This document shows positions 1,888 through 12,886 of a stretch of 64,000 bases of DNA, one piece after another; within the stretch, counting starts at the first letter, position 1, and each line of letters begins with the position of its first letter. The translations under genes were made by a program, and so were the position numbers. The notes beneath the pieces were generated by a model that worked only from the letters and a program-made list of their open reading frames with translations, made no database searches and was not told the origin of the DNA. Source of the DNA: Phosphitispora fastidiosa (GTDB lineage Bacteria > Bacillota > Thermincolia > Thermincolales > UBA2595); assembly GCF_019008365.1 (NCBI RefSeq), contig NZ_JAHHUL010000011.1, positions 1 to 64,000 on the forward strand, read 5' to 3'.

Positions 1888-2331
1888 TTGATAAGTGATG
1901 ATACTTCAATCCAAAGAAATGTTGAAAATGTTCTTAAAAACAACCGGCTGTTGCGGAATGCGGATATAAAGATTGAAACCAGGAATGGTGAAGTTACACT
2001 GTTTGGTTTTGTTGACGTTTTAGCGGAAAAGTGGGCTGCCGGAGCTGCTGTTGCCCAGGTTCCGGGAGTAACATCTGTTGATAACAGCCTTACCGTGGCA
2101 GTAGATGGGCCCATTGATGACAGCGATGTCGGAGAAGGGGTCAGGGAGAAATTCTGTGCTGCAGACAGAAACTACCTTCATGAGCTGACTGCAGAGGTTA
2201 ATGATGGTGTTGTATGTATTCGGGGTCAGGCAGAGAGCCTGGCAGTAAAAGAGGCAGCAGTAATGGCTGCCGCAGGAGTCCCGGGAGTTAAGGATGTTGT
2301 GTCAATTTTGCACATTGGCGTGCCGGAATAA
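1888..2331 (+). CDS. Protein with two BON domains
   Basis: The 147-residue protein contains two copies of the BON fold (about residues 8-72 and 77-147), each with the typical glycine-valine pattern: NGEVTLFGFVDVLAEKWAA in the first and NDGVVCIRGQAESLAVKEAA in the second. BON domains bind phospholipid or peptidoglycan-associated partners in OsmY- and Kbp-type proteins. No signal peptide is visible, so it is predicted to be cytoplasmic or peripheral, which is also seen for potassium-binding Kbp. Translation starts at TTG, chosen because GAAGGAGG ends 7 bp upstream at 1880. It lies alone between two short spacers with a terminator after it. Confidence 0.75.
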   Translation: MISDDTSIQRNVENVLKNNRLLRNADIKIETRNGEVTLFGFVDVLAEKWAAGAAVAQVPGVTSVDNSLTVAVDGPIDDSDVGEGVREKFCAADRNYLHELTAEVNDGVVCIRGQAESLAVKEAAVMAAAGVPGVKDVVSILHIGVPE

Positions 2332-2350
2332 GAATAAATATGTCGGGTAG

Positions 2351-2386
2351 AGGGCAGGTGTTAAAACATCTGCCCTGAAATATTTT
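2351..2386 (+). terminator. Terminator hairpin after BON gene
   Basis: Arms AGGGCAGGTGTT (2351-2362) and AACATCTGCCCT (2365-2376) pair with one G-T wobble around a 2-nt centre. The following run is GAAATATTTT, a weak T tract, so termination may be partial. Confidence 0.65.
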
Positions 2387-2495
2387 CACCTTTACAGTCT
2401 ATGCAGGAATAATGCACTTGAGATAGAATATACAATAAATGCAGGTTTATGACCGAAATAATTGATTTGTGGTATATGCCATGGGAGGTTAAAGG

Positions 2496-3746
2496 GTGCA
2501 AAAATTGTACATAAAAGGCGGCAAAACACTAGAAGGGAAAGTAAGAATCGGTGGAGCCAAAAATGCTGCGTTGACCATAGTTTGTGCTTCATTACTGGCA
2601 GGAGACACTGTTTGCCTGGAGAACATGCCTGACATAACAGACGTTAATGTCTTGCTTGATATTATAACAAATTTAGGGGTAAATGTAGTGAGAAAGGGAC
2701 CGGATGTTGTCGAAATTACGACACCTGACCGTATATCAACTAAAACCCCTTATCGTGAGGTTAAAAAGTTAAGGGCATCTAATCTACTTCTGGGACCATT
2801 GCTGGCACGGTTCTGCAATGCGGAAATTGCCCTTCCGGGAGGCTGTAATATAGGGAGCAGGCCAATGGACCTGCACATCAAGGGTTTCGAGGCTCTGGGG
2901 GCAAATATAAGCCTTGAGCACGGTTTCATTAAGGGCCGCTGCAGCCGACTGTCGGGGTCTAAAATATATCTTGATTTTCCGAGTGTTGGCGCTACCGAAA
3001 ACATCATGATGGCAGCCGCTTTGTCTAAAGGACAGACGGTATTGGAAAATGTCGCTAAAGAGCCGGAGATAGTGGACCTGGCTAACTTTTTAAATAGTCT
3101 TGGGGCTAAAATCAGGGGCGCCGGGACCGATGTGATTAAGATTGATGGGGTCGACCAGTTAGGGGGAGGCCGCTATTCGGTTATTCCTGACCGTATTGAG
3201 GCAGGCACCTTTATGGTTGCTGCTGCGGCTACCCATGGCGACCTGACTATCGAAAATATTATTTCCACCCATGTGGAGCCCCTGATAGCAAAACTGCGTG
3301 AGGCAAATGTGGAGGTAATTGAAGACGATGAAACGATTCGGGTTATTGCCCGGGACGAACTCCGGCCTATTGACATTAAAACACTGCCATATCCCGGATT
3401 TCCTACTGACATGCAGTCACAGGTGATGGCTATGCTTACGGTTGTTAAAGGCACCAGTGTCATTGTGGAAAACGTCTTTGAAAACAGGCTTCAAGTAGCT
3501 GATGAGTTTAAGCGAATGGGCGCCAAGATAAAAGTTGAAGGCCGCACGGCGGTAATCCAGGGTGTCAAGCGGCTTCAGGGAGCTCAGGTGAAAGCGTCGG
3601 ATTTACGGGCGGGTGCAGCCCTAATACTGGCCGGCTTAATAGCAGACGGGGATACCGAAATCTGTAACACGTGTTATATTGACAGGGGATATGAAAAAAT
3701 TGAGCAAAAACTAATTTCACTGGGTGCAAGTATCAGCAGGATTTGA
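2496..3746 (+). CDS. murA: UDP-N-acetylglucosamine 1-carboxyvinyltransferase
   Basis: MurA transfers enolpyruvate from PEP to UDP-GlcNAc, the first committed step of peptidoglycan synthesis in the cytoplasm. The 416-residue length is normal for the family. The sequence carries the N-terminal KNAAL motif (substrate lysine and asparagine), the RASNLLLGPLLARF stretch, and the catalytic loop GGCNIGSRPMDLH with the fosfomycin-target cysteine. The C-terminal DLRAGAALILAGL motif is also present. Start is GTG at 2496, preceded by GGGAGGTT at 2480-2487. Firmicutes often have two MurA paralogues; whether this is MurAA or MurAB cannot be told from this window. Confidence 0.95.
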   Translation: MQKLYIKGGKTLEGKVRIGGAKNAALTIVCASLLAGDTVCLENMPDITDVNVLLDIITNLGVNVVRKGPDVVEITTPDRISTKTPYREVKKLRASNLLLGPLLARFCNAEIALPGGCNIGSRPMDLHIKGFEALGANISLEHGFIKGRCSRLSGSKIYLDFPSVGATENIMMAAALSKGQTVLENVAKEPEIVDLANFLNSLGAKIRGAGTDVIKIDGVDQLGGGRYSVIPDRIEAGTFMVAAAATHGDLTIENIISTHVEPLIAKLREANVEVIEDDETIRVIARDELRPIDIKTLPYPGFPTDMQSQVMAMLTVVKGTSVIVENVFENRLQVADEFKRMGAKIKVEGRTAVIQGVKRLQGAQVKASDLRAGAALILAGLIADGDTEICNTCYIDRGYEKIEQKLISLGASISRI

Positions 3747-5913: not shown

Positions 5914-6705
5914 ATGCGGGTTTGTACTTTAGCCAGCGGAAGTTCCGGAAACTGTACATATATTGAGGGGAATGGGGCTTCAGTGCTGGTAGATGCCGGA
6001 CTAAGCGGGAAAGCAATAAAACAGGGCCTGGAGACTATTGGTGTCGATCCTCTGGACCTGGATGGGATCATGGTTACCCATGAACACCTGGATCATATTA
6101 AGGGTGCAGGTATTCTTTCCCGAAGGTATGATCTAAAGATTTATGCAACAGCAATGACCTGGGAACAAATGCTGCCCACTGTAGGGAATATTGAGGACTG
6201 CAATAGGGGGGTTCTGCGCAGGGAGGACTATCTGGAAATTGAGGATCTTAAGATTGAATGTTTCGAGACATCACATGATGCTGCCGAATCAATTGGATTT
6301 TGTTTCGCCAGCGGGAGGGTGAAAGTCGGAATAACCACTGATACCGGATTATTAACCAGACAGGCGCGAAAACACGTGGATGGCTCCGATTTGTTGATAT
6401 TTGAAGCCAATCATGACCTTGATATGCTTAAAAGCGGCAGATATCCCTGGAGTGTGAAGCAGAGGATTTTAAGTGACAGGGGTCATATGTCCAATATAGC
6501 GGCAGGGCACTGTTTAGCTTCTCTTATCAGCGGGAAGACTAATAAAGTAATTTTAGCTCATCTCAGCAGGGATAATAATACTCCTGAGCTGGCTTTTAAA
6601 ACAGTTGCCGATGTATTGCAGGAATCCGGTTTAACGCCAGGGCAGGATCTCGTTATGGAGGTGGCTCCGAGGTTTGGACCGGGAACAATCTGGGATATGG
6701 TGTGA
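5914..6705 (+). CDS. walJ: MBL-fold hydrolase of the WalJ/YycJ family
   Basis: The 263-residue metallo-beta-lactamase-fold protein carries the dinuclear zinc motif THEHLDHIKG (HxHxDH), the N-terminal LASGSSGNCTYIE signature typical of YycJ, and later metal ligands in ETSHDA, TTDTGLL and LAHLSRDNN. YycJ/WalJ has been linked to cell-wall regulation and to DNA exonuclease activity in Firmicutes. In Bacillus and relatives it lies beside an HtrA protease gene and rlmH, as here, which supports the name. Start ATG 5914 with GCGGAGG upstream; its stop overlaps the ribosome site of htrA. The two-component walRK genes are not in this window. Confidence 0.85.
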   Translation: MRVCTLASGSSGNCTYIEGNGASVLVDAGLSGKAIKQGLETIGVDPLDLDGIMVTHEHLDHIKGAGILSRRYDLKIYATAMTWEQMLPTVGNIEDCNRGVLRREDYLEIEDLKIECFETSHDAAESIGFCFASGRVKVGITTDTGLLTRQARKHVDGSDLLIFEANHDLDMLKSGRYPWSVKQRILSDRGHMSNIAAGHCLASLISGKTNKVILAHLSRDNNTPELAFKTVADVLQESGLTPGQDLVMEVAPRFGPGTIWDMV

Positions 6706-6719
6706 AGGAGAGGTTACCT

Positions 6720-7841
6720 ATGTATCATGATGACCATGATTTTTATATGGGACATCGCCGCCCCAGTCTGATATCATATGTAGCTGCTGCATTAATTGGG
6801 GCAGTAATCGGAGGCATGATTGTTGCTTTTGTGACAGCAGGTCTTTTCGATAACCCCACAAAAATGAACACTCAGGATAAAAAGAGTCCTGCTCCGGTGC
6901 AGACACCGGGAGAGTCACCGGTGGTCAGAATTGCAGAAGAAGTTGGCCCAACTGTCGTGGGAATAAGCAACCGTGTTGACGTTTCTTCCTTTTTTAATAA
7001 TCAACAGGTAGAACGGGGAACCGGTTCGGGAGTCATATTTAATGAGGCAGGCTATATAGTAACCAATTATCATGTGATTCAGGATTCAGACCAATTGATT
7101 GTCACCCTTCCAACCGGCAAGCAGGTATCAGGCAAGCTTGTTGGCGCAGACAGGAGGACTGACCTGGCTGTTATTAAGATTAATGAGAAAGGCTTGGAAA
7201 CCGCGGCATTTGGAGATTCGGATAAGATAAAGGTCGGGGAACTTGCTGTGGCTATCGGAAATCCGCTTGGAGAGGAACTGGCCAGCACTGTAACAACAGG
7301 TGTCATCAGCGCCCTGAACAGGACTGTTGATGTTAATGAACAACGATTCCAGCTTATACAGACAGATGCTGCGATAAATCCCGGAAATAGTGGAGGGGCT
7401 CTGGTTAACTCCAGAGGTGAAGTTGTGGGAATCAATAGTGTGAAAATTGTTGATGTTAATGTCGAAGGCCTTAATTTTGCCATACCAAGTAATACGGTAA
7501 AGCCTATAGTTGAGTCAATAATTAAAAATGGCAGGGTCATCCGCCCTTGGATTGGGATAATCGGGGGGGACGTAAACCCTGCGATCAAAGAACGTTTTGG
7601 GCTTGCCGTTGATAAAGGAGTGTTTGTCAGCGAGCTGCCCCCGGCGGGACCTGCCGCTAAAGCTGGTCTTAAAAGCGGGGATGTCATCATCTCCTTTAAT
7701 GGGCAGGACACCAAGGACTTTGGCGATTTGCGCACATATATTGACAAGCAGAGTATAGGAGAAGAGGTAGAGCTTGTCGTGATGCGTGGTGCAAATAAAA
7801 ATAGCATCAAAGTAAAGCTGGAACAAATGCCTGAGGAATAA
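6720..7841 (+). CDS. htrA: HtrA/DegP-family S1C serine protease, membrane anchored
   Basis: The 373-residue protein has a short cytoplasmic tail, one membrane segment (about residues 17-40), a trypsin-like protease domain and one C-terminal PDZ domain (about residues 275-370). The triad is visible: His in IVTNYHVI, Asp in RRTDLAVIKI and Ser in NPGNSGGALV. It degrades or refolds misfolded proteins at the outer membrane face. I choose ATG 6720 because AAGGAGAGGT lies 6706-6715; an upstream in-frame GTG at 6702 lacks a site. It forms an operon with walJ. The expected next gene in the Bacillus order, rlmH, is displaced by an inserted agr operon on the other strand. Confidence 0.92.
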   Translation: MYHDDHDFYMGHRRPSLISYVAAALIGAVIGGMIVAFVTAGLFDNPTKMNTQDKKSPAPVQTPGESPVVRIAEEVGPTVVGISNRVDVSSFFNNQQVERGTGSGVIFNEAGYIVTNYHVIQDSDQLIVTLPTGKQVSGKLVGADRRTDLAVIKINEKGLETAAFGDSDKIKVGELAVAIGNPLGEELASTVTTGVISALNRTVDVNEQRFQLIQTDAAINPGNSGGALVNSRGEVVGINSVKIVDVNVEGLNFAIPSNTVKPIVESIIKNGRVIRPWIGIIGGDVNPAIKERFGLAVDKGVFVSELPPAGPAAKAGLKSGDVIISFNGQDTKDFGDLRTYIDKQSIGEEVELVVMRGANKNSIKVKLEQMPEE

Positions 7842-7860
7842 GTTAAACCCCAGTGAAAGG

Positions 7861-8619
7861 TTATTCTGAGCCTACGTCCAGCATTTCGTACAGCATTTTG
7901 ACCTTTGATCTGCTCATCAGGGCATCATTGCTTGTGTTAAAAAATTTTACCAGGTATGAGTTATCTCCCCACGGCAAGATCTTCTCAACCATTTTCAGGT
8001 TAATTAAGTAACACTTATGAGACCTGAAGAAGTTCGTGGGATTTAACCTTTTTTCAATTTCATTTAGCGGCTCATGGGTTTCAAACTTACCCTTAACAGT
8101 ATGAATCACGGTTTTTTTTCGTTCCTTTTCCATGTAGAAAATCGAATCAGCGTCAATGAAGTGAAGCTCATAGCCACACTTCACATATAGCTTGTCAGTT
8201 GACTTAAAAACGTTGAAGAGTTTTTGCAGGTCCAGTTCCCGTTCTTTAATGAACCCACGGATTTTATCCAGAGTTTTTAAAACCCTGTCTTCATTATACG
8301 GTTTTAGAATATAGTCAAAAGAGGAAACTTCAAATGCCTCAACGGCAAAATCAGAATGACCGGTCACAAAAACAACCAACAGGTCTTCGTTATAATCTAA
8401 AAGAGTTTTTACTGCTGCCATGCCATTGACCTTGGGCATTTCTATATCAACAAAGACAACCTGAGGCATGTGTCTTTTGGTAAGATTAATCAGGTCCCGT
8501 CCGTCAGCGGCTTCGGCAACGACTTTAAAATCATCGTGTTTTTCCAGAATGTTTCTTAAGAATTTTCGGTTATTTGGCTGGTCTTCGGCAATTATAACTT
8601 TTATCAGCTTTTGGGACAT
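7861..8619 (-). CDS. agrA: LytTR-type response regulator, AgrA-like
   Basis: The 252-residue protein has a receiver domain (about residues 1-125) with acidic pocket IIAEDQ, phosphoacceptor Asp in VVFVDIEMP and the conserved Lys in SFDYILKPYNEDR. A LytTR DNA-binding domain (about residues 140-250) follows, recognisable from FYMEKERKKTVIHT and FFRSHKCYLINL. Such regulators bind pairs of short repeats spaced by about 21 bp. It is the last gene of the agr-like operon, after agrD. Start ATG 8619 is chosen because AAAGGGG lies upstream; a TTG seven codons earlier has no site. It should be phosphorylated by the adjacent kinase. Symbol is by role and context. Confidence 0.85.
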   Translation of the reverse strand: MSQKLIKVIIAEDQPNNRKFLRNILEKHDDFKVVAEAADGRDLINLTKRHMPQVVFVDIEMPKVNGMAAVKTLLDYNEDLLVVFVTGHSDFAVEAFEVSSFDYILKPYNEDRVLKTLDKIRGFIKERELDLQKLFNVFKSTDKLYVKCGYELHFIDADSIFYMEKERKKTVIHTVKGKFETHEPLNEIEKRLNPTNFFRSHKCYLINLKMVEKILPWGDNSYLVKFFNTSNDALMSRSKVKMLYEMLDVGSE

Positions 8620-8641
8620 ATTATGGAAATCCCCTTTCAAC

Positions 8642-8679
8642 TTAGTAAGAAGGGTAGGTTGTCCTACCCTTCTTACTAA
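8642..8679 (-). other. 17-bp perfect hairpin between agrD and the regulator gene
   Basis: Bases 8642-8658 and 8663-8679 are exact inverted complements with a 4-nt loop TTGT. Neither strand has a T tract after it, so it is not a standard terminator. It sits inside the operon, about 20 bp after the agrD stop and 23 bp before the regulator start. It may stabilise the upstream mRNA end or mark a processing site, giving more agrD than regulator; this is inference. Confidence 0.8.
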
Positions 8680-8701
8680 TGTTTGACTCTTCAGTTCTTT
8701 G

Positions 8702-8836
8702 TTACTTCTTCAGTTGCTGCGGAGCTTCCGGCTGGTAGCTGAGTAACCAGGAATACGTTGAAGCGCCAGCTGATGCGATGAGGGAAATAAGTGTAATAGC
8801 TGTCAGAATAAACATGGAGTTAAACCTTTTAAACAT
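8702..8836 (-). CDS. agrD: AgrD-type cyclic lactone autoinducer precursor
   Basis: This 44-codon gene has a strong AAGGAGGTG ribosome site 5 bp before its ATG. The product has the three-part AgrD plan: an amphipathic membrane-seeking leader (MFKRFNSMFILTAITLIS), a signal-peptide core STYSWLLS near residues 26-33, and a charged tail YQPEAPQQLKK. The tail matches the clostridial pattern xQPxxPxxL. The position that is normally the ring-forming cysteine is serine 29, predicting a five-residue lactone SWLLS instead of a thiolactone. There is no cysteine anywhere in the protein. It lies 12 bp downstream of agrB, its processing enzyme. The exact mature ends are inferred by alignment from memory with clostridial AgrD. 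Confidence 0.88.
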   Translation of the reverse strand: MFKRFNSMFILTAITLISLIASAGASTYSWLLSYQPEAPQQLKK

Positions 8837-8848
8837 AATTTCACCTCC

Positions 8849-9490
8849 TTAACGTATTTTTAGTAAGCATAAACCTTTGTCTGCCGTATTAATGATTTTG
8901 TGTCCCCAAGGGGTAATCATCAGAGCCTGCCAATAAATACCCAGAGCAGTCGAGATTATAATTGTTGAGCTTAAGGCCTGATTACCGACAGTAATATTAA
9001 CACCTAAAATTGTTACCAACCAGACCGCAAGGAATAGAAAGCTCAGCTTTGTTACTGTTTTTGTGGGTTTGGATGAACTACTGGAATAGTTGACACTATA
9101 ACCCGGACCGAACTTGTCCAGGGTGGCTGCCATAACAATAGATGCCAGAAAAGCAGTTATCAGAAGATTAACCGGGCTCATGATGCTTAAGAGGTATACA
9201 GCCAGGTAACCTAAAGCGATATATGCCATAAGAGATACGATTAGGCAGCGCAGACTGGAAGAGCAGTGCTGTCCGCCTGTTAGAACCCTAAGAGGAATAG
9301 AGGTACAGAAAACGAATAACATTGGTAACAGCAGATTCAGAACGTATGCAATAAGAACAAGCAATAATAATTTAATGGTTTCTCCGATGATTAATTCGAG
9401 ACCATAAGTAAGCACAGGAAGCTGTTCCGGCTTCCCTGCCTTCTCAGCCAGGTAACGGCCGGTTCTTTCAGATAAGCCGTGGATTGTCAT
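8849..9490 (-). CDS. agrB: AgrB-type membrane peptidase that processes AgrD
   Basis: The 213-residue protein has four to six hydrophobic segments. It carries the AgrB catalytic pair in LTGGQHCSSSLRC, where His and the second Cys are seven residues apart, the spacing seen for the catalytic His/Cys of staphylococcal AgrB. It cleaves the AgrD tail and forms the ring at the inner membrane face. ATG 9490 is chosen because AAGGAG lies about 11 bp upstream; the TTG three codons earlier would overlap the site. It sits 15 bp after the kinase gene and 12 bp before agrD. Confidence 0.92.
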   Translation of the reverse strand: MTIHGLSERTGRYLAEKAGKPEQLPVLTYGLELIIGETIKLLLLVLIAYVLNLLLPMLFVFCTSIPLRVLTGGQHCSSSLRCLIVSLMAYIALGYLAVYLLSIMSPVNLLITAFLASIVMAATLDKFGPGYSVNYSSSSSKPTKTVTKLSFLFLAVWLVTILGVNITVGNQALSSTIIISTALGIYWQALMITPWGHKIINTADKGLCLLKIR

Positions 9491-9505
9491 TGATATCAAT
9501 ACTCC

Positions 9506-10846
9506 TTATTTAACCGGAATAATAACAGAGAAACTGGTTCCTTTTTCTTCTGAGCTTTTAACTATTATCTCTCCCCCGATTTGATCCACAATTTGTTTAA
9601 CAACTGCCAACCCCAGCCCGCTGTGATTTTTCTTGGTTGTATAATTGGGTTCAAAGAGTTTGTCAATATCCAGAGGATCTATTAGAGGGCGTTGGTTAAC
9701 AACTTCAAAAATGAAGACAAAGGAAAATTTCTTGAGACTGACCTTTACAGTGCGAAATTCTGGTGGTTCATCAGCTACCGCTTCCAGAGCATTATCAATA
9801 AGATTGCCAAGGATTTTGACCACTTCGTAAGGTTTGAGCTTCAGGCCCTCCAGTGGGGTTTCCTGCCTGACGTCGAGGATAATATTGAGCCTTTCAGCGA
9901 CCGCTGTTTTGGTATTAAATAAAGCGCTGAGAACAGGGTCTTTTACTTTAATTACCCTACTGACACTTTGGATTTCCCCGAGAAGGTTTTCCATATAGCT
10001 TTTGGCTTCCTGAAGCTGGTCATTCTGCAGCATGGAATATATAACCTGAACATGATGGATAAAATCATGTCTTTGTCCCCGTATTGTGGTAAACAGCTTG
10101 TTAATATTGTCAATAAAAGCCTCCTGGGTTTCAGTTATAGTTTCCTGCTCAGAAAGGGTAAACAGTCTTTTCACTAAGAATATAGAAACTAAAGGGACGG
10201 TAAACAGGAGTAAACCGGCAATTCTGGTAAAGGCAATGTTGTCAAGCAATGGCCATAATTTATATTCCTGGTTGAAAATAATCATGTTCATTACTCCGGA
10301 TAGGAAGGCTTGCAGCATAACCAGACTTATAAGCACCAAGTTTATTTTCTTGCTTCTGGTTTTGGGATAAAAGAAGCTGGTTGCTGAAACCAGGGAAACC
10401 TTCTTTTTTAATAATATAACTGTGACCGCTATCATTAATAAAAGATAAGACCATCCTGTAATGAGACGGTATAATGTATTTGAGAAAATTTCCTTAACGG
10501 GCATATTAAAGACAAGAGATGCTACGGGATAGGTGATGTATTCAAGCAAAGCTATAATTATGAACCCGGTAAATATGTAGAAAAAGGATTTAATAAAAGA
10601 AATTTTAAGATATTTTGCAGTTAGTATGATAAATACAGGAATTTCTATTAATACATTCAAACCGAACTTCAGTTCAGGTAACGCACGCACAATGTATGTG
10701 ATCACAGCTAAAGATGTTCCCAATAAAACAATCCGGTAAAAGTTTTCCTTAACCTTGTATCCATAAATGGCAGCACTTAATGAAATCAGAATGGTACTTT
10801 CAGGGATGGAGTATAAAAGCAGAACAAGAATCGGCATTTTCTCCAT
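9506..10846 (-). CDS. agrC: AgrC-like sensor histidine kinase
   Basis: The 446-residue protein has a polytopic N-terminal half with about six or seven membrane segments (residues 5-225), typical of peptide-sensing HPK10 kinases. The dimerisation helix carries the phosphoacceptor in GQRHDFIHHVQVIYSML. The GHKL ATPase domain shows the N box in LGNLIDNALEAV and the G box in HSGLGLAVVKQIVDQIGG. It should detect the cyclic peptide and phosphorylate the LytTR regulator. It is the first gene of the operon, giving the order C-B-D-A instead of the staphylococcal B-D-C-A. ATG 10846 has AAGGAAGGGG upstream; an ATG three codons later with GGAG is also possible. Confidence 0.9.
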   Translation of the reverse strand: MEKMPILVLLLYSIPESTILISLSAAIYGYKVKENFYRIVLLGTSLAVITYIVRALPELKFGLNVLIEIPVFIILTAKYLKISFIKSFFYIFTGFIIIALLEYITYPVASLVFNMPVKEIFSNTLYRLITGWSYLLLMIAVTVILLKKKVSLVSATSFFYPKTRSKKINLVLISLVMLQAFLSGVMNMIIFNQEYKLWPLLDNIAFTRIAGLLLFTVPLVSIFLVKRLFTLSEQETITETQEAFIDNINKLFTTIRGQRHDFIHHVQVIYSMLQNDQLQEAKSYMENLLGEIQSVSRVIKVKDPVLSALFNTKTAVAERLNIILDVRQETPLEGLKLKPYEVVKILGNLIDNALEAVADEPPEFRTVKVSLKKFSFVFIFEVVNQRPLIDPLDIDKLFEPNYTTKKNHSGLGLAVVKQIVDQIGGEIIVKSSEEKGTSFSVIIPVK

Positions 10847-10876
10847 TTTTATGGTATCCCCTTCCTTTAAAATCGT

Positions 10877-10963
10877 ATTCTACAATACATTTTTGAATCC
10901 TTCTCCATGGGTTTGAAATACGGTAATTGTGGGATGAAATGCGGGTTTCGTGGGTTAAAATGC
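10877..10963 (-). promoter_or_regulatory. Predicted agr promoter with three 21-bp-phased repeats
   Basis: On the plus strand three related motifs occur at 10907-10921 (ATGGGTTTGAAATAC), 10929-10942 (GTGGGATGAAATGC) and 10950-10963 (GTGGGTTAAAATGC). Their TRAAATRC cores start exactly 21 bp apart. A candidate -10, TAGAAT on the minus strand, lies at 10877-10882, with no good -35 at 10900-10905, so the nearest repeat abuts the -35 position. LytTR regulators typically bind two 9-bp repeats separated by about 12 bp, which matches. The repeats are seen directly; binding by the local regulator is inferred. Confidence 0.6.
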
Positions 10964-11130
10964 AGAATTGCTCAAACAAACCAAGGACAATTCCCATAAA
11001 TGGAGGAAAATTCCAAACAATATACGTATATATCTTTTGAACACCCTTAAACCCTAAACGTTAACCATATTCGACATAAATAGACAAAATCCTTGCACTA
11101 GAATGATTATTGTTTCAGGAGGGATAGGAA

Positions 11131-11610
11131 ATGAATATACAGATCTTCGCTATTGGAAAAGTGAAGGAAAAGTATATCTCTGATGGACTGCAGGAGTACC
11201 TGAAAAGGATGAGGCCTTATGCCTGTGTAGAGGTAAAGGAAGTGCCTGACGATAAAGTCCCTGAAGGACTCAGCGCCAGGGAAGCGGAGCAGGTAAAAGC
11301 CCGGGAGGGCGAGCGGATATTGAAGCTGCTTAAACCGGGGCAGGTGGTCATTGCACTCGACAGCAGAGGCTCGATGATTTCTTCTGAGCAGCTGGCTGAG
11401 GAAATTAGCGGGTGGGGCCTGGCAGGTAAGAGTGATCTTGCTTTCATTATCGGGGGTTCGCTGGGACTGCACAGTGAAGTTATTGGCAGGGCTGACTTGG
11501 TATTATCATTCGGAAAGATGACATTTCCGCATCAACTTATGAGGCTGATCCTGCTGGAACAGATATACCGGGCATTTAAGATAAACAGGGGTGAACCGTA
11601 TCATAAGTGA
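11131..11610 (+). CDS. rlmH: 23S rRNA pseudouridine-1915 N3-methyltransferase
   Basis: RlmH is a SPOUT-class methyltransferase that methylates pseudouridine 1915 in helix 69 of 23S rRNA. The 159-residue length and the C-terminal knot motifs FIIGGSLGLH and LSFGKMTFPHQLMRLILLEQ, ending in NRGEPYHK, are fully typical. SD TCAGGAGGG lies at 11115-11123. The last codons (GEPYHK and stop) form the 21-bp sequence that recurs at 13065-13085. In staphylococci this gene end (orfX) is the attachment site for SCC cassettes. The gene is intact here, as expected for SCC insertion. Confidence 0.96.
   Translation: MNIQIFAIGKVKEKYISDGLQEYLKRMRPYACVEVKEVPDDKVPEGLSAREAEQVKAREGERILKLLKPGQVVIALDSRGSMISSEQLAEEISGWGLAGKSDLAFIIGGSLGLHSEVIGRADLVLSFGKMTFPHQLMRLILLEQIYRAFKINRGEPYHK
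11590..11610 (+). repeat. att-like direct repeat copy 1, in the 3' end of rlmH
   Basis: The 21 bases at 11590-11610 recur exactly at 13065-13085. The core GTGAACCGTATCATAAGTGA encodes the end of RlmH (EPYHK, stop) and resembles the staphylococcal SCC site of the form GAAGCRTATCATAARTGA, from memory. The bases before the two copies differ (G versus C), so the exact repeat ends at 21 bp. The element-side sequence that follows, TTGCGGTTTTCA, resembles staphylococcal SCC right ends. Confidence 0.88.
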
Positions 11611-11887
11611 TTGCGGTTTTCATGTATATATTTAACAATATAGAAGGATTTTGGGGGAAAAGGGAGAATGTTCATTAGTAGAAAATTATGTTCCCCTTTT
11701 AAGTTTGTCGATTATATAGTTAGGGCAAGCGTATCGAGGGTGTCTGTAGTTTTGGTGTGGATTGGTTTCAACTAAGATTTCTTAGTACATACTTCAATAA
11801 AAAATGAATTGTATTATGTCGATAATTTATTGATAATATGTAGCGGGTTATGATAGTATTTGTTTTGAAATAAATGGAGAAAATACT

Positions 11888-12886
11888 ATGCCGAATAATC
11901 GCAATTTTAAAACTACAAATGGGTTAATGAGTTATCTTCGTAGCTGTGGTATTGTCATAAATGGCAGTCATCAAAAGAGATTGTTGATTAATTATGGTTA
12001 TTACCATGGTTATAAAGGATATAGATTCTTTCATGACCCAAAGAGAAGGATACCGTTTGCTGATTTTAAACATCTTGTGGATATAATCGAATATGATAAC
12101 AGTTTAAAAGAATTGTTCTATTCGAAATTAATGTTTATTGAAACTGCATTAAAAAATTTGTCAATCGAGTATATACTTATTGATGCAGGTACTAATGAAA
12201 TCAATCAGATATTTATTAGGTCAATGCCTGGAAGGAGAGCAGCACCAGCTGGTGCAAATGCTGAAACGAAGAAAAAATTAGAGATAAAGAAGCAAAAATG
12301 TATACATAAATTCCGAGGGACACTCCTTAATGATTATAGTTACAGTAATAAAATTGTTTCTAATTTTTATGATAAGATAGCATATAATGATGTACCTGTA
12401 TGGGCAGTATTTGAAGTTATCACCTTAGGGCAGTTTGGTAACTTCGTATCTAATCTTAATATCGGATTAAGGGATAGAATTTCAAGAAATTTAAGATTGG
12501 ATTTATCAGGAGACACAAACCGTACATTGTTATCAGATATGATATTTGTCATTCAAGATTTAAGAAACGCAGTTGCGCACAATGATATTATATTCGATAC
12601 ACGATTTCGGAAAACCGATATCCGTGCTCCTTTGAAAATATGTATGACGCATGAAATTGGGTTACCTTATGCTAATTTCAAATCATTAGTTGATTATGTT
12701 AGTTTGATTGCCTATCTTATGAAAAAATTGTTAGTTTCTAAACGTAAGATATTGAGTTTTATAAGTGGTTTTGAAGATGAGATTATTTCTTTACAGTCAC
12801 GTTTGCCTGTGAATTTGTTCAACATGGTTGTACATCCAGATACTTTAAATAAAATTGGGACACTAAAAACTTTTATACGAACTTAA
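11888..12886 (+). CDS. Abi_2/AbiD-F-like abortive infection protein with HEPN motif
   Basis: The 332-residue protein matches the Abi_2 pattern: an N-terminal LLINYGYYHGYKGYRFF segment, a middle helix LKELFYSKLMFIETALKNLS, and a region VWAVFEVITLGQFGNFVSNL. Near residue 228 it has LRNAVAHNDIIFDTRF, which provides the HEPN-type RNase motif Rx4H. Proteins of this family abort phage infection or act as toxins by RNA cleavage. The codon usage is AT-rich compared with neighbours, consistent with transfer. ATG 11888 has TGGAGAA about 9 bp upstream, with a weak promoter TTTATT-N17-TATGAT at 11826-11854. It is the only cargo of the rlmH-linked cassette; no antitoxin gene is visible. Confidence 0.82.
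   Translation: MPNNRNFKTTNGLMSYLRSCGIVINGSHQKRLLINYGYYHGYKGYRFFHDPKRRIPFADFKHLVDIIEYDNSLKELFYSKLMFIETALKNLSIEYILIDAGTNEINQIFIRSMPGRRAAPAGANAETKKKLEIKKQKCIHKFRGTLLNDYSYSNKIVSNFYDKIAYNDVPVWAVFEVITLGQFGNFVSNLNIGLRDRISRNLRLDLSGDTNRTLLSDMIFVIQDLRNAVAHNDIIFDTRFRKTDIRAPLKICMTHEIGLPYANFKSLVDYVSLIAYLMKKLLVSKRKILSFISGFEDEIISLQSRLPVNLFNMVVHPDTLNKIGTLKTFIRT

Follow-up and report, generated by a model that had tools for sequence, protein, structure and literature searches.

A conserved serine-type AgrD precursor in a complete agrCBDA operon and a candidate regulon of 21-bp direct repeats in Thermincola and relatives

The analysis of the window (the whole stretch of 64,000 nucleotides under study) has revealed a complete agr operon on the minus strand, located between the rlmH and htrA genes, in which both a sensor kinase and a LytTR response regulator are encoded together with agrB and agrD (Table 1). 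The gene order is agrC-agrB-agrD-agrA, in contrast to the order B-D-C-A of the staphylococcal agr systems. The AgrB protein carries its catalytic His and Cys residues in the motif GGQHCSSSLRC. The listed start codon of agrB is TTG, with an ATG three codons further in, and agrA is also listed with a TTG start, with an ATG 7 codons further in. The hydropathy profile of the AgrC-like kinase displays about seven hydrophobic segments, followed by SPOB_a and GHKL-type ATPase domains. An RNAIII has been reported for staphylococcal agr, whereas no Rfam family, RNAIII included, was found within positions 6500-12000, the divergent neighbour being rlmH. A promoter/terminator consensus scan gave no more matches than in shuffled sequences.

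Table 1. Coordinates of the agr locus and its flanks, numbered from the first nucleotide of the window.
Feature	Position	Strand	Remarks
htrA/degP-type serine protease	6702..7841	+	conserved flank, outside operon; synteny in L186-L188
agrA-like response regulator, receiver and LytTR domains	7861..8640	-	PF00072, PF04397
17-bp RNA hairpin, perfect stem	8642..8679	-	between agrD and agrA; fold z -5.1
agrD, 44-aa Ser-type signal precursor	8702..8836	-	ATG start; TIGR04223 29.9 bits
predicted ring S29-W-L-L-S33	8738..8752	-	register: ring residue 10 before conserved Pro39
agrB, membrane endopeptidase/cyclase	8849..9499	-	PF04647 2.4e-29
agrC-like histidine kinase	9506..10846	-	PF14689, PF14501, PF02518
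three direct repeats, 21-bp period, predicted LytTR (AgrA) boxes	10910..10963	-	upstream of agrC
rlmH	11131..11610	+	conserved flank, outside operon; synteny in L186-L188

The AgrD precursor (MFKRFNSMFILTAITLISLIASAGASTYSWLLSYQPEAPQQLKK) contains no cysteine, and the existence of this cysteine-free gene of 44 codons, the starting point of the original prediction, was confirmed by reading of the open reading frame and by the match to TIGR04223 (AgrD family cyclic lactone autoinducer peptide; 4.3e-07), whose score lies above the curated cut-off of 19 bits; a Pfam search with the peptide gave 0 matches. A strong ribosome-binding site, AAGGAGGTGAA, is located directly 5' of agrD (8840-8850, minus strand). 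It is doubtful, however, whether ordinary gene callers would miss the gene for its shortness, as the original prediction held, since the curated NCBIfam model picks it up and its length exceeds the usual Prodigal minimum of 30 codons.

The ring position was defined as the residue located ten before the second Pro of the tail, which is Pro39 in this precursor; the ring residue of S. aureus AIP-I likewise lies ten before that Pro. This register places Ser29 (codon TCC, 8750-8752) at the usual position of the ring Cys, as had been proposed, and the C-terminal end of the precursor reads S29-W-L-L-S33/Y34-Q-P-E-A-P39, with the expected cut between S33 and Y34. The residue at Pro-10 was Cys, Ser or Thr in the AgrDs surveyed (n=155 distinct), a pattern that the pair Ser29/Pro39 fits.

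The arrangement rlmH-agrCBDA-htrA is syntenic in four genomes. Besides the genome of the window (G000), from a Thermincola-like bacterium, these comprise two congeneric genomes (G001, G002) and one from a sister genus within the family (G003); AgrB identity is 76-89% among the congeners and 45% in G003. Among named relatives, the closest is a Thermincola ferriacetica MAG, with an AgrB 89% identical; the contig-level genome scan for relatives returned one relative. The comparison of agrD across these genomes has shown that the serine is kept in the orthologues L186, L187 and L188, and Ser29 is therefore neither a sequencing slip nor a chance occurrence. The ring segments of the orthologues are SWVFS, SWFLS and SWAIT (from the two congeneric species and the sister genus), so Ser and Trp are invariant and ring positions 3-5 differ, as expected of signal diversification. 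Two tandem kinase genes are found 5' of agrB in G003 (L188, reverse strand, 813-2147 and 2326-3660), possibly two receptors for one signal.

A second agrD with a cysteine was also sought in the genome of the window (239 contigs, completeness 99.96%), and none was found in this assembly: besides two agrBD pairs, no further AgrD scored over the TIGR04223 cut-off. The other pair, at G000:C28, encodes an AgrB 32% identical to that of the window and an AgrD ending in ...TNSMFMFYQPEPPKKY; this precursor likewise lacks Cys and carries Ser at the ring register. In G002, a LytTR gene adjoins an AgrD-like frame interrupted by a TAA (C40, 36785-38351), possibly a decayed second agr locus.

The hairpin between agrD and agrA folds far better than shuffled sequences (Table 1). 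In the alignment of four species its stem is 100% paired and 6 pairs are changed on both sides, versus none or one doubly changed pair in slid controls. In the window it is not accompanied by a T run. It may act in attenuation, RNA processing or RNA stability, and a role in agrD:agrA dosage would be a guess.

Direct repeats of LytTR type with a 21-bp period are also known from the S. aureus agr system. The repeats upstream of agrC consist of ACCGCATTT-like units of 9 bp with 12 bp between units, for which 0.02 matches are expected by chance in the window, and the triple repeat is the best conserved block of an otherwise diverged region. Their layout agrees with the 9-12-9 arrangement of LytTR boxes, e.g. 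ACCGCTTGT-12-ACCGCTTAT (PMC6193735). Repeats of 21 bp are present upstream of the agr kinase in G000-G003 and in G004, from another genus, thus in three genera; in G003 it is the second kinase that is preceded by the triple layout, and in G004 a pair of repeats precedes the kinase. A genome-wide pattern search, in which up to three mismatches were allowed and the reversed pattern served as control, gave 23, 23, 32 and 19 sites in G000, G001, G002 and G003 (2, 1, 2 and 4 in the control) and 43 in G004 (2 in the control), versus only 3 in G005 and 0-3 in more distant genomes tried. Spacer positions left free by the pattern were also conserved (AAAACC), and most sites fall upstream of genes. The genes recurring at boxes in the three Thermincola genomes (names by Pfam) encode a glucan phosphorylase, an HDOD protein, a tyrosine recombinase and two proteins of unknown family, with 166 and 137 aa, respectively. 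In two genomes boxes also recur at a sigma-factor gene and at genes for large secreted proteins, and a subtilase gene is found at a box in G000; the frame at the G000 sigma-factor locus was found short and may be broken.

These repeats, with their recurrence at orthologous promoters, define a candidate quorum regulon, a prediction in which AgrA would be the LytTR protein bound at the repeats. That the serine-lactone agr system controls this regulon through the 21-bp ACCGCATTT arrays in Thermincola and relatives is a tentative proposal, with odds slightly short of even; its members would include the HDOD-domain protein, glucan phosphorylase, tyrosine recombinase, an ECF-type sigma factor, the subtilase and the large secreted proteins. 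Alternatively, the operon could make the lactone signal but the genome-wide repeats could serve another LytTR regulator, so that the regulon would not belong to the operon. Three LytTR proteins besides AgrA are encoded in G000, which speaks for this explanation; however, G003 has two LytTR genes only, agrA and one that is apparently family-wide, G005 seems to carry the family-wide gene yet has one strong box site only, and boxes precede the agr kinase in three genera. The assignment of the repeats to another regulator is regarded as rather unlikely. The candidate regulon, a prediction, is of more interest than the peptide.

With regard to the peptide itself, the nucleophile could be a residue other than Ser29, for instance Thr27, which would close a ring of 7 residues. 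The four family members all keep Thr27 as well as Ser29, the second agrBD locus (G000:C28) also has a Thr two before the Ser, and E. faecalis GBAP has a lactone ring of 9 residues. This alternative is nevertheless improbable: the C/S/T position is constant at Pro-10 across the survey, numerous precursors of the Ser type lack a Thr at that distance from the Ser (e.g. KPASFFLW), and C. thermocellum uses the identical ring register. A decayed precursor, which contains no Cys at all because the ring cysteine has disappeared and which no longer yields a cyclic signal, is very improbable, given that the Ser is kept in four genomes, each with a complete operon in the same place, that the AgrB active site is intact and that Ser at the ring position is common to many members of the phylum. 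The product is best read as a serine lactone of five residues, S29-W-L-L-S33, with the cut ahead of Tyr34. Of the original prediction, the sequence supports an AgrD with Ser at the ring position and a predicted SWLLS lactone.

The genes and their order, the conservation of Ser29 and of the AgrB active site, and the repeats and their spread are read directly from the DNA; the two cuts, the lactone bond, the sensing of the signal and the binding to DNA are inferred. With its catalytic Cys, AgrB would cleave AgrD between Ser33 and Tyr34, and the hydroxyl of Ser29, in place of a cysteine thiol, would take the acyl group, forming the ring S29-W30-L31-L32-S33. The leader would be cut as well, probably behind an A-x-A site (before G24 or S26), which would release a peptide of 8 or 10 residues such as STYSWLLS, the sequence leaving this N-terminal boundary loose. 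Once exported, the peptide would be recognised by the membrane kinase AgrC, and this kinase would phosphorylate the LytTR regulator AgrA. AgrA would then bind the tandem 21-bp repeats 5' of agrC, giving positive feedback, as well as repeats at roughly a dozen further promoters. An autoregulated agrCBDA quorum-sensing operon with a predicted serine-lactone signal is the best explanation of the sequence data, with a probability of about 0.8.

Among known systems, a Ser-lactone pentapeptide was confirmed by LC-MS/MS in C. thermocellum, whose precursor has Tyr at the cleavage site and, five residues later, a conserved Pro (PMC5322536). The window precursor resembles that of C. thermocellum (Clo1313_2818) in its five-residue ring with Ser, Tyr at +1 and Pro at +6, the lactone being predicted here. 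The two differ in the ring residues and in the exocyclic tail expected for the window peptide, and the C. thermocellum agrD lacks an apparent agr operon, in contrast to the full agrCBDA of the window. Lactone AIPs have also been reported in S. pseudintermedius/intermedius and E. faecalis (PMC3673130, PMC12312760). The Ser at the ring position is shared with the S. pseudintermedius/intermedius agr, and the E. faecalis Fsr/GBAP system is similar in its Ser-based lactone (predicted here), AgrB-like processing enzyme, kinase and LytTR regulator, although the GBAP ring has nine residues versus the five predicted in the window; in that system fsrD is contained inside fsrB in another frame (PMC3673130). 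The window operon is also like S. aureus agr in its AgrB, AgrC and AgrA homologues and in the ring residue located 10 before the conserved Pro, but the S. aureus ring is a Cys thiolactone, unlike the Ser ring predicted here.

The assumption that serine lactones are rare compared with thiolactones was not sustained, either by these published lactone AIPs or by the survey of the phylum, in which 155 distinct AgrD precursors were drawn from 185 loci. The automatic tally (C 105, S 44, T 2, 3 unassigned and 1 mis-set) was completed by reading the four leftovers by eye (three Cys and one SWLAW), giving about 108 Cys, 45 Ser and 2 Thr. The Ser share of about 29% is a rough fraction, because the loci were mainly the best-scoring ones from a 398-genome phylum sample, plus relatives. 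No dedicated survey of Ser- versus Cys-type AgrD was found in the papers searched. Two AgrDs have Thr at the ring position (L017, minus 1980, and L026, minus 2106; TGFWS and TGSNG), possible threonine lactones, one of which belongs to the family of the window (G005). Five Ser-type AgrDs (L029, L081, L144, L166, L178) form a group in which the leader is short and charged (KLLKKATKANVASVSG...), whereas AgrD leaders are usually hydrophobic.

The catalytic Cys was found in all 117 aligned AgrBs, those with Ser-type partners included, and the catalytic His in 116 of them, so one enzyme type appears to serve both nucleophiles. Parsimony gave 13 changes between Ser and Cys on the tree of the 117 AgrBs, at least 3 of them forced by well-supported branches. 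An AgrB signature for lactone formation, G39-x3-K43 plus an aromatic residue near the catalytic Cys, was strongly associated with Ser partners. It was rejected as a determinant: it marks one Ser-rich clade and persists in several Cys members of that clade (L148, L113, L136), and Ser also occurs outside this clade without the signature. A sign test on it was undecided, with 3 well-supported independent switches only, and it is kept as a clade marker.

The window peptide is a real, conserved Ser-type AgrD within a complete operon, and it adds one more example of a ring closure that is already known and, in this phylum, common; the idea of serine-ring AIPs as oddities is corrected to about 3 in 10. 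On the AgrB tree, Ser and Cys have replaced one another at the ring position several times while the AgrB active site stayed, and the ring-closure chemistry is therefore testable in natural sister pairs such as L084/L130, L131/L023 and L148/L007. The genus Thermincola is known to transfer electrons to metals and to electrodes. Among the papers searched, one names both Thermincola and AgrD, a biofilm review with one mention of each. Thermincola now gains a concrete quorum-sensing operon with a predicted signal and a predicted regulon. If the agr system does control this regulon, the secreted products of these thermophiles, and perhaps their recombination, would be under quorum-sensing control.
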